A stretch of 64,000 nt of DNA from positions 1 to 64,000 of the forward strand of contig NZ_LMAK01000062.1 of NCBI RefSeq assembly GCF_001439665.1, in the 5' to 3' direction. The first letter of the stretch is position 1. Each line of letters starts with the position of its first letter. This stretch comes from Formosa algae (GTDB lineage Bacteria; Bacteroidota; Bacteroidia; Flavobacteriales; Flavobacteriaceae). Under the pieces are notes generated by a model. The model saw only the letters and a program-made list of their open reading frames with translations. It ran no database searches and was not told where the DNA came from. This document shows, piece by piece, positions 5,452-8,252 of the stretch. The position numbers and the translations under genes are program-made.

Positions 5452-7032
5452 CTAAAGAGCATCTGTAGTTTGTGTGTTATTTACTAATCTTAAAATCCCA
5501 AGTGGATTAGCATTTTGCAATTCTAAAGGCAATAAATGATCTGGCCAATCTTGAAAACTAAAAGGTCTAACCCATCGTTTTATAGATTGTGTACCAACGG
5601 CTGTAAAACGACTATCTGTAGAGGATGGATATGGCCCACCATGAACCATAGACGGACAAACTTCGACTCCTGTAGGTACACCATTAAAAATAATGCGTCC
5701 AACACGATTTTGTAATGCACTTATAATACCTGGATGCGCATCTGCTTCTTGGTCTGCTGCAATTAATGTTCCTGTTAACTGCCCTTCTAATTTAGATATC
5801 ACAAGCTCTAATTCCTCCAAACTACTACAAGCAACTACCATAGAAAATGGACCGAACACCTCTTGGTGTAAGTTTATATTTTCTAAAAATGTAGAACCAG
5901 CTACACTTACAACTGTTTGTTGCGCATAATTAGGTTGTACTTCAGATTTATATACTGCCGCAACAGTAATACCATCTTGCTCTAAAGCTTTTTCTTTATT
6001 CTTTAAATAAGCTCCTTTTATGTTAGGATGTAACATACAAGTTGGTTCAACTTTTACAATTTCTTGAGAGAGTACATCAATAAATGTATCTAAATCTTCA
6101 CCTGCTATCCCTAAGATTAATCCTGGGTTTGTACAAAACTGTCCCGTACCTAGTGTTATTGATCCGGCATATGTTTTCGCCCATTCTGTTCCTTGCTCAG
6201 ACAACGCTTTTGGTAATAAAACCACTGGGTTGATACTGCCCATTTCTGCAAACACAGGAATAGGTTCTTCACGTTCTGCAGCCAAATCGTATAACGCACG
6301 ACCACCTTTAATACTTCCTGTAAACCCAACAGCTTTAACTCCTGCATGTTTTACCAATTGCTGCCCCACTTCTATACCACTACTATTAATATTAGAAAAC
6401 ACACCATCTGGCATATTGGTTTTCTTAGCCGCTTTAATGATTGCTGAAGCCACAAGCTCTCCTGTTCCGGCATGCATAGGGTGAGATTTAACGATTACTG
6501 GGCAACCTGCTGCAAGAGCTGCTGCTGTATCTCCGCCAGCTGTAGAGTATGCTAAAGGAAAGTTACTCGCACCAAATACCACAACAGGACCTAATCCCCT
6601 ATACATTTTACGTAAATCGGGTTTTGGCATTGGTGAACGTTCGGGCTGTGCGGTATCTATTGCGGCTTCTACCCAAGCGCCTTCTTCTACTAAATTTGCA
6701 AAAGCTCGTAATTGTCCAATAGTTCTTGAACGCTCTCCCATGGCACGACCTTCTGGCAAACCGGACTCTTTACAATAGGTTTCTATTAGAGTGTCTAAAG
6801 CTAAAATTTCATCTGCAATAGTATTTAGAAATTCTGCTTTTGCTTTTCCTGATATTTTAGAAAAATGCTTAAAAGCCTCTGTCGCTAAAGCTACTGCTTG
6901 GTTTATTTCTTCTGAAGTTGCCTCTGTAAAAACGGCATCGTTATCTGTATTGGTTTGCGGATTAAAGGTTTTGTATGTTTTTGTTCCTATTGCAGATGCT
7001 GTAAAACCAATATAATTTTTTCCTGTAATCAT
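5452..7032 (-). CDS. Aldehyde dehydrogenase, 2,5-dioxovalerate (alpha-ketoglutaric semialdehyde) type
   Basis: 526 residues from the ATG at 7032 (MITGKNYIG); the frame is open to 7059, but the first nine residues are atypical. This is an NAD(P)-dependent aldehyde dehydrogenase with catalytic Cys in GTGQFCTNPG (about residue 300), general-base Glu in FAEMGSINP (about 263) and the SNFP active-site Asn (about 157). The EMGSINP and GQFCTNPG signatures are typical of the dioxovalerate subgroup, which makes 2-oxoglutarate at the end of hydroxyproline, glucarate or pentose degradation. The divergent AraC gene is a plausible regulator. The other genes of those pathways are not in the window, so the pathway is not fixed. 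Confidence 0.85.
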   Translation of the reverse strand: MITGKNYIGFTASAIGTKTYKTFNPQTNTDNDAVFTEATSEEINQAVALATEAFKHFSKISGKAKAEFLNTIADEILALDTLIETYCKESGLPEGRAMGERSRTIGQLRAFANLVEEGAWVEAAIDTAQPERSPMPKPDLRKMYRGLGPVVVFGASNFPLAYSTAGGDTAAALAAGCPVIVKSHPMHAGTGELVASAIIKAAKKTNMPDGVFSNINSSGIEVGQQLVKHAGVKAVGFTGSIKGGRALYDLAAEREEPIPVFAEMGSINPVVLLPKALSEQGTEWAKTYAGSITLGTGQFCTNPGLILGIAGEDLDTFIDVLSQEIVKVEPTCMLHPNIKGAYLKNKEKALEQDGITVAAVYKSEVQPNYAQQTVVSVAGSTFLENINLHQEVFGPFSMVVACSSLEELELVISKLEGQLTGTLIAADQEADAHPGIISALQNRVGRIIFNGVPTGVEVCPSMVHGGPYPSSTDSRFTAVGTQSIKRWVRPFSFQDWPDHLLPLELQNANPLGILRLVNNTQTTDAL

Positions 7033-7167
7033 TATTTTTATTTTTTGAATTATAAACACACATTTAGCAACGCCTTACCTTTTATTTAAGTAATACTAAG
7101 TTTAAACACCTGATTATAGAGTAATAAGGAAAATTGTTGTGTTTTATAATTCGGTTTTATATGTGTT

Positions 7168-7266
7168 AAGGATTGAGGCTTTGTTTGAGCTCTTTTTTAA
7201 GGCATTAAAACCTTAAAAAAAGCGAGTGCCGAAAGCCTGACCCGCTAGGGTAACACCCAAATCCTT
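7168..7266 (-). ncRNA. Candidate structured RNA or folded repeat element
   Basis: About 99 bp, clearly richer in G and C than its surroundings, with nested complementary arms. The closing stem is AAGGATT / AATCCTT (7168-7174 with 7260-7266). A second stem is AGGCTTT / AAAGCCT (7176-7182 with 7232-7238). Inside it is a hairpin CTTTTTTAAGG / CCTTAAAAAAAG (7192-7202 with 7211-7222). Between second and closing stems is a small hairpin GGGT / ACCC (7248-7251 with 7255-7258), which competes with CCC / GGG (7241-7243 with 7248-7250). Minus orientation is a guess, because it would then lie in the leader of the aldehyde dehydrogenase gene. It may be a dispersed flavobacterial repeat or a known motif such as Flavo-1; the identity is not established. 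Confidence 0.45.
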
Positions 7267-7353
7267 GTTTAATAAACAAAGCTACTTAGGAAATTAGATT
7301 TTATGGTAATTTTTATTATCCACAGTTAATATAAAAGTATCCATTTATTGAGT

Positions 7354-7373
7354 TTTTAGAATATTTTAGAATA
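7354..7373. repeat. Tandem 10-bp direct repeat upstream of the AraC gene
   Basis: TTTTAGAATA occurs twice head to tail (7354-7363 and 7364-7373), about 40 bp before the AraC-family start codon. AraC proteins usually bind direct repeats, so it may be an autoregulatory site. In such AT-rich DNA, chance is possible. Confidence 0.35.
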
Positions 7374-7412
7374 TTATTTGCGTAATTTTAAACGCGAAAA
7401 AGAAAGTTAAAC

Positions 7413-8252
7413 ATGAAAGTTTTACCGTTTAAAATCCCTAAACCACAACAAAACGCACTTGTTTTTCAGGACGATTTGGATGTTATATTTTATGATAAAC
7501 TACACCAACATGAAGAAATACAGCTTAGTTTGATTGTTTCGGGAGAAGGTTCTTTAATTGTTGGCGACACAATAAACCATTACGAAACTGGCGATATTTT
7601 AATTATTGGAAGCAATTTACCACATGTATTTATAAGTGATGAACACACTACGAAACCGTCGCATATGATGACATTGTTTTTTACAAAACATGCATTTGGT
7701 CCACATTTCTTTGATTTGGTTGAACTTGAAGCTTTAGAACCTTTTTTTAAACGTGCCGAACAAGGATTTAAAGTAACCTCTAAAAAAAAACAGGTTACAG
7801 ATTTATTTTATGCGCTTAAAACAAGTTCTAAATTAGAGTGTTTTATTATTCTAATTCGGCTTTTACAAACCACGGCTACAACGGCATTTGAAAGTTTATC
7901 GTCTTACAGTTACGATAAACGGTATACGGATAATGAGGGAAAACGCATGCGAGATGTGTTTGAATATACCATGACACATTTTAATCAGGATATTACTTTA
8001 GAAACGATTTCTGAAGTGGCTGTAATGACTAAAAATGCATTTTGTAAATATTTTAAAAAACGAACCAATAAAACGTATTTTCAGTTTTTAAATGAATTAC
8101 GGATTGAACATGCATGTAAATTGATTGTAAAAGACAACGATTTGTCTATTTCTGAAATTGCATATCGTTCTGGATTTAAAAATATTTCTAATTTTAATAG
8201 ACAATTTAAAAGCGTAAAAGGCGGTATACCTTCTGCTTATAAGCGCCGATAA
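7413..8252 (+). CDS. AraC-family transcriptional regulator
   Basis: 279 residues. The N-terminal part (about 15-130) is a cupin-like ligand-binding domain (HQHEEIQLSLIVSGEGSLIVG, then GDILIIGSNLPHVF). The C-terminal 100 residues form a double helix-turn-helix of the AraC/XylS type; its second HTH contains ISEIAYRSGFKNISNFNRQF, a near-consensus signature. Such regulators sense a small molecule and activate neighbouring genes. The divergent aldehyde dehydrogenase gene, 380 bp away, is the likely target, by position only. Confidence 0.92.
   Translation: MKVLPFKIPKPQQNALVFQDDLDVIFYDKLHQHEEIQLSLIVSGEGSLIVGDTINHYETGDILIIGSNLPHVFISDEHTTKPSHMMTLFFTKHAFGPHFFDLVELEALEPFFKRAEQGFKVTSKKKQVTDLFYALKTSSKLECFIILIRLLQTTATTAFESLSSYSYDKRYTDNEGKRMRDVFEYTMTHFNQDITLETISEVAVMTKNAFCKYFKKRTNKTYFQFLNELRIEHACKLIVKDNDLSISEIAYRSGFKNISNFNRQFKSVKGGIPSAYKRR

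Follow-up and report, generated by a model that had tools for sequence, protein, structure and literature searches.

A Flavo-1-like structured element, dispersed through flavobacteria, in front of an aldehyde dehydrogenase gene of Formosa algae

In the window, a 64,000-nt stretch of the Formosa algae genome, a gene for an aldehyde dehydrogenase (open reading frame 5452-7059 on the minus strand, with a likelier ATG, by reading, at 7032) diverges from a gene for an AraC-type regulator (open reading frame 7413-8252 on the plus strand, whose AraC-type NCBIfam matches all fall below cut-off). The named family nearest to the dehydrogenase is 2,5-dioxovalerate dehydrogenase (NCBIfam NF052305), which it matches at 114.1 bits, far below the cut-off of 750. 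A sequence-only reading had noticed four complementary arm pairs in the space between these genes and had offered three explanations: a regulatory 5' leader of the dehydrogenase gene on the minus strand, a small RNA, or a dispersed flavobacterial repeat for which Flavo-1 was named as a pointer. The questions that this locus raises are what the segment is, which of its strands folds, and whether it serves the gene in front of which it stands.

Architecture and covariation of the element

Positions 7163-7259 of the plus strand are one copy of a dispersed structured repeat of about 95 nt that is widespread in flavobacteria. The copy is 97 nt long, has a branched fold and is of the GAGCTC type (type A, Flavo-1-like); its extent is that of a match of 104.7 bits to our model R1, which replaces the span 7168-7266 first proposed, and the ends of the element are sharp across 58 loci.

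The closing stem, P1 (in general GYGTT/AACRC), pairs GTGTT at 7163-7167 with AACAC at 7252-7256 and shows a two-sided CG/TA change among copies. Inside it follow an unpaired A and then P1a, whose 5' side (7169-7174) and 3' side (7233-7238) covary: AGG forms three pairs (7169-7171 with 7236-7238), and a GATTGA/GAAAG internal region contributes two more, the T-A pairs of 7173-7174 with 7233-7234. Substitutions in P1a turn A-U into G-C and G-C into C-G. P2 consists of three variable pairs, here GGC at 7177-7179 with GCC at 7228-7230; among copies its 5' arm reads GGC, GCG, GCA or GCT, each with a matching partner. Beyond an internal loop stands P3, in which the arm 7189-7202 (GCT, a bulged C at 7192, then TTTTTTAAGG) pairs through 7189-7191 and 7193-7202 with the arm 7211-7223. 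The base of P3 is GCT/AGC, its outer arm is A/T-rich and covaries freely, and two-sided changes occur in all 12 of its modelled pairs. A small hairpin, P4 (7241-7250, with CCC at 7241-7243 and GGG at 7248-7250), likewise covaries and sits at the base of the long irregular hairpin.

All four arm pairs of the sequence-only reading are present in the sequence, and two of them recur among relatives: the A/T-rich hairpin, which is P3, and the CCC/GGG form of the small hairpin, whose proposed GGGT/ACCC alternative is not a conserved pairing. The other two are not conserved: among 124 type A copies, only 4 could form the 7-bp closing stem 7168-7174/7260-7266 (AAGGATT/AATCCTT) and only 3 the second stem of 7 bp, 7176-7182/7232-7238 (AGGCTTT/AAAGCCT). 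P1, both parts of P1a and P2 had been missed. Folded alone, the segment reaches z -3.65 on the plus strand (0 of 200 shuffles as good) and z -3.58 on the minus strand (1 of 200), and its minimum-energy fold relies on stems that are absent from relatives.

The fold is maintained through compensatory changes, single orthologous sites included. Fifteen aligned copies share one structure of 26 pairs, with 96.4% of cells paired and two-sided changes at 14 pairs; no shuffle among 500 was as good on any measure, and the values dropped sharply when the partner was slid. In 59 distinct copies 97.3% of cells are paired and 22 of the 26 pairs show two-sided changes, and in 80 further copies, scored over 28 pairs, the corresponding figures are 95.5% and 25 of 28; the first pair of P2 is the weakest and is not formed in 32 of these 80. 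A chance fold in AT-rich DNA could point to the two stems of the first proposal that are nearly private to the window copy, but it is refuted by covariation in all three copy sets, where 0 of 500 shuffles reached the observed values each time, and it retains next to no probability. Compensatory changes, without which or with decayed copies alone the sequence-only reading would have given up a structured element, are thus abundant, and decay affects some copies.

A stem position with G-T on the plus strand still pairs when that strand is present as RNA or as single-stranded DNA, whereas A-C would pair on the minus strand only. By this measure the plus strand is the folded strand, independent of the direction of the neighbouring genes. 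Over 198 copies there are 99 G-T against 40 A-C (p 6e-7), divided into 51 against 20 in the core stems and 48 against 20 in the inward extension of P3, which was walked without preference; counted by site cluster, 50 hold G-T and 22 hold A-C. The bias is found with both neighbours opposed to the element ('<<', 46 vs 18) and with both in its own direction ('>>', 27 vs 8). A smaller first set showed none in the settings '<>' (5 vs 5) and '><' (2 vs 3), and for type B alone it is weak (25 vs 15, p 0.15). The plus-strand wobble bias argues against selection having acted on the fold of the operon's own mRNA.

Kinship with Flavo-1 and distribution of copies

As judged from its sequence, the element is by homology a divergent 'GAGCTC' branch of Flavo-1 that lies outside RF01705 as defined. 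The Rfam search suggested by the sequence-only reading gave nothing for the window copy: at the gathering threshold (42 bits), which sets membership by score, RF01705 has no match anywhere in the window; at E up to 10 it has none in 6900-7500; and none of the best 10 of its 11 matches in the own genome lies at this place. The pointer to Flavo-1 and the option of a dispersed flavobacterial repeat were right all the same, because 10 of 20 related loci scanned, the window's own included, pass the RF01705 gathering score. Of the remainder, the hybrid L112 reaches 29.9 bits, below gathering, and nine, among them the window copy, are unmatched at E 1. BLASTN from the window segment leads to a copy in G003 (L059/L080) at E 4.9e-6, and that place (L080) scores 64.7 bits for RF01705; model R1, one of whose 15 training copies (L059) is itself of RF01705-positive form, picks up further RF01705-positive loci. 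The shared core and fold, together with the intermediates, place the element in the group by homology, as does its occurrence in Bacteroidetes, for which the counts are given below. Among 18 named GAGCTC-pattern loci (of 80 listed), the pattern site itself passes gathering in 2. In Tenacibaculum, GAGCTC-pattern copies at L281 6918-7001 and L337 2584-2667 pass this score, and the L337 site has a match to model R2 without the outer stem (model positions 7-74).

Flavo-1 was reportedly listed in 2010. Table 1 of PMC2864571, the part of that paper used here, enters it as RNA 'y' and cis-regulatory 'n'. According to the sections of PMC9723704 available to us, Flavo-1 copies of F. psychrophilum are placed indifferently sense or antisense of transcribed regions, many lie in none, and there is no consistent strand. 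In the available parts of the literature found, which also includes PMC9029176, no function of Flavo-1 is given, and a search by sequence and topic, with subscription papers largely outside its range, returned no description of the GAGCTC branch.

BLASTN, the other check suggested at the outset, gave two further places in the own genome at E <0.01, besides one 19-base match, and matches at E 0.001 in all six genomes of the genus, over which R1 has 62 matches. In the family, R1 matches were obtained in at least 122 of 199 Flavobacteriaceae genomes, a lower bound since 21 candidates per genome were scored. Model R2 has 14 matches in the own genome; 28 of 39 relatives have at least one, with up to 36 per genome; and a phylum scan that scored 10 candidates per genome gave matches in at least 47 of 395 genomes (33 of the same family, 4 more of the same order, 6 more of the same class and 4 elsewhere). 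The exact GAGCTC core pattern occurs in at least 119 stretches, in genera that include Polaribacter, Tenacibaculum, Chryseobacterium, Lutibacter, Algibacter and Flavobacterium, and 76 of the 80 loci taken from these have a model match at E 0.001; at the same value R2 missed one Flavo-1 copy in L292 that Rfam detected. Copy counts exclude a duplicate row for the window and a weak second match in L107, and types A and B were assigned by short patterns, by which L096 was misfiled as A through a chance AGCTC in a loop.

Viral contigs gave 0 matches to the GAGCTC core pattern, and blastn in phages and plasmids returned no copy at the sensitivity used. An exact 16-mer occurs in 30 stretches of viral contigs, at one site each, in contexts that were unlike the element when inspected by eye and were judged chance. 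A degenerate type A copy lies in the sufD/sufS gap of the own genome (L003, C67:190214-190301), with matching copies in G001, G002 and G004. In G040 a second dispersed repeat, about 165 bp long and apparently not related to the element, lies at about 1616-1793 of L199 as fetched, next to the Flavo-1 copy of that locus; this repeat occurs in at least 10 places, with some matches on both strands.

Placement, descent and decay at individual sites

Copies are intergenic, in many cases immediately downstream of a stop codon, and have many unrelated genes as neighbours. They fall into 107 site clusters, 25 of them in at least two genera and 10 in at least three, as formed by single linkage on the same-side flanking protein at 40% identity, which is blind to flips and may merge paralogous sites. 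Type A clusters number 35 in the setting '<<' against 14 in '>>' (p 0.004), with 15 in '><', 9 in '<>' and 1 one-sided, and most type A copies are antisense to at least one neighbour.

Over loci with two flanking genes and a gap slack above 0 and up to 600, the genes being taken from a simple ORF picker that makes errors (some negative spacings), 45 of 65 type A copies in '<<' begin at most 12 nt from the stop codon, where even placement in the gap would give 18.6; copies keep away from the start codon at the opposite end (11 of 65). The other types behave alike in this setting, with 14 of 31 near the stop (6.9 expected, p 0.0004). For convergent type A copies a stop lies near the 3' end in 10 of 15 (5.0 expected) and near the 5' end in 7 of 15 (p 0.09), and in '>>' the stop-codon excess is not significant (type A, 6 of 20 with 3.5 expected; other types, 7 of 19 with 4.1 expected). 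When locus pairs from different genera with a flanking protein in common were compared in a way that allows flipped copies, the element had the same orientation in 154 of 159, was flipped in 4 and was neither in 1; 23 of 25 groups were free of flips. End matches of 3 to 9 nt, counted as a sign of target-site duplication, were no commoner than in shuffles.

The dehydrogenase gene is present in four of the six genomes of the genus, each with a type A copy upstream, and the other two are without the gene; in two further genera (L108, L237) the dehydrogenase likewise has a copy upstream. In alignments of single sites, of which A6 and A7 each lack one later-found cluster member (L237, L183), five copies of the window site, one of them from another genus, have 99.3% of cells paired and 6 pairs with two-sided changes, and eight copies of the queD/lpxH site have 11 such pairs. 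Each of the 6 copies in the window's site cluster, from three genera, has the GTGTT form of P1, which only 2 of the 192 other copies share. Because this form is nearly confined to the cluster, the copy has been kept there by descent and its helices repaired, which is more than would be expected of idle mobile DNA.

Other sites differ among relatives. The mgtE/PGDH copy is intact in three genomes of the genus and decaying in three (L081, L153, L214), with GG changed to CC in P1a and, in this genome (L214), a truncation with loss of the 3' half. Between yrdA and murI a copy is present in 5 genera, and 3 others have a gap of 0-17 nt and no copy. Of the 16 loci read there, five carry the copy downstream of the yrdA stop, always in the same orientation (at G011 it was identified only by eye); in three the murI match follows after 0-17 nt, with no copy; three more have wider gaps, where no copy was recognised, and five are without a murI match. 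Some genomes carry near-identical cores (92-99%) beside different genes, as in L182/L184 (99%), L195/L199 (97%), L160/L168 and L162/L164, and mean identity is 0.751 within a genome (129 pairs), 0.728 between orthologous cross-genus copies (103) and 0.691 between unrelated cross-genus copies (1432). Movement combined with selection at some sites could produce the near-identical copies, and so could gene conversion.

The largest site cluster (12 loci, 9 genera) sits in front of tmRNA. At 14 loci chosen because they appeared tmRNA-sided, namely the 12 members and two more, ARAGORN placed in every case, over 10 genera, a tmRNA on the same strand as the element and 15-131 nt downstream of it; type A is found at L109, L110, L119, L158, L167, L176, L204, L220 and L270, and another type at the five loci of the own genus (L080, L086, L089, L093, L097). 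At 6 of 7 examined tmRNA loci outside the own genus, the element is preceded by a TAnnTTTG box whose end lies 5-6 nt away; the own genus's five loci have no such box. Its place just before the element suggests that the pre-tmRNA may start with the element. The box was rejected as a general plus-strand promoter: no more than 18 of 138 copies have it between 30 nt upstream and 6 nt inside the 5' end, and 6 of these 18 belong to tmRNA loci.

Competing explanations and known systems

We favour, with a probability of about 0.5, a copied non-autonomous structured element of the Flavo-1 group, some sites of which, such as the tmRNA leaders, are kept by selection. Dispersal, kinship with Flavo-1, strand bias, near-identical copies, presence and absence at given sites, decay and placement behind stop codons count for it; sites and orientation kept across genera, with helices repaired there and descent marked by GTGTT at the window site, count against it, as do the lack of a Y1 transposase match in the own genome at E 1e-5, the lack of copies in phages, plasmids and viral contigs at the sensitivity used, and end matches no commoner than in shuffles. 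Such an element would spread as a non-autonomous copy, with a putative trans-acting factor recognising its folded plus strand as RNA or as single-stranded DNA. Copies would settle behind stop codons, where harm is small; some would then decay, and others would be inherited, perhaps through being put to use.

A structured RNA that is useful to the host would be transcribed from the plus strand and kept beside particular operons, with one protein per genome binding all copies; the transcript could be a small RNA, the leader of tmRNA, an antisense RNA or an intercistronic one. Taken jointly, these propositions have in our judgement a real chance of being true, if somewhat short of an even one. 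They draw on the compensatory changes at fixed orthologous sites (window and queD/lpxH), on the descent marked by GTGTT at the window site, on a plus-strand bias that holds even where both neighbours run opposite, on the constancy of orientation between genera, and on the tmRNA found downstream at every chosen locus with its box outside the own genus. Against them stand the rarity of TAnnTTTG among copies in general and its absence from the own genus's tmRNA loci, the antisense position of most type A copies, the decay of some copies, and the indifference to sense and antisense, with many copies outside transcribed regions, that the available sections of PMC9723704 describe for F. psychrophilum.

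The element is not devoted to controlling the dehydrogenase gene. A cis-regulatory leader on its minus strand, whether riboswitch or attenuator, has in its favour the position of the copy, which fits here, in all three other gene-bearing genomes of the genus and in the two further genera; we consider it highly improbable, as the 107 site clusters lie beside unrelated genes, the wobble pairs and the conserved fold belong to the plus strand, antisense to the dehydrogenase, and the six copies lie at anything from 6 to 283 nt from the predicted start. The diversity of neighbours also led us to reject a riboswitch for one metabolite. The folded-strand specificity, the proximity to stop codons and the lack of target-site duplication would suit a repeat of REP type, mobilised as folded single-stranded DNA by a Y1 (REP-associated tyrosine) transposase, and Y1 genes are present in 49 of 122 genomes with the element against 13 of 77 without (p 0.0005). 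This explanation is nevertheless improbable: the own genome (G000) has no Y1_Tnp (PF01797) match at E 1e-5 despite its 14 copies, Y1 is found in only 9 of 24 high-copy genomes, and an element of about 95 nt with a branched fold is not a 20-40 bp palindrome.

With the copied element as our preferred reading, a wider and rather doubtful proposal is that the extended Flavo-1 forms a family-wide system, in which one putative factor per genome would act on tens of folded plus-strand copies behind stop codons in fixed orientation; it might be a mobile element of a new type, copied via an intermediate that is structured RNA or single-stranded, or else an antisense regulon in dispersed form, and tmRNA leaders would be among its oldest sites. 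The element itself is real and strongly supported, ordinary as a member of a known orphan family and useful as an extension of that family. The analysis widens Flavo-1 by a second large branch that Rfam mostly does not recognise, supplies the full architecture, and identifies the folded strand independently of the neighbouring genes. It also gives rules of placement: behind stop codons, in an orientation fixed across genera, before tmRNA in ten genera, and with near-identical copies at unrelated sites. An orphan motif becomes a testable question of what copies the element and whether any copy serves the host.

Integron attC sites have RYYYAAC at their start and GTTRRRY at their end; by reading, the element has these in reverse order, with GYGTTA at its start and AACRCC at its end, and an attC site was rejected. 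REPs lie close to stop codons. Like REP/BIME sequences with their RAYT transposases, the element is dispersed, structured and intergenic; unlike them, it is longer and branched, in a genome without a Y1 transposase match, whereas a REP, by the definition in the part of PMC3733652 used here, is a 20-40 bp palindrome with a tagged end. With Flavo-1 the element shares the GATTGA ... GAAAGC core, the T-A pairs and the A/T-rich hairpin; one model finds both, both occur in the same bacterial family, and the two types stand at the same tmRNA-side site in different genera. They differ at the base of P3 and its internal loop, which read TTTGTTTGAGCTC / GCGAGT in the GAGCTC branch and GGCATCC / GATATA in Flavo-1, and the Rfam model (76 positions) has its first base pairs at P1a, inside the outer GYGTT/AACRC stem and without the CCC/GGG side hairpin that complete the architecture described here.
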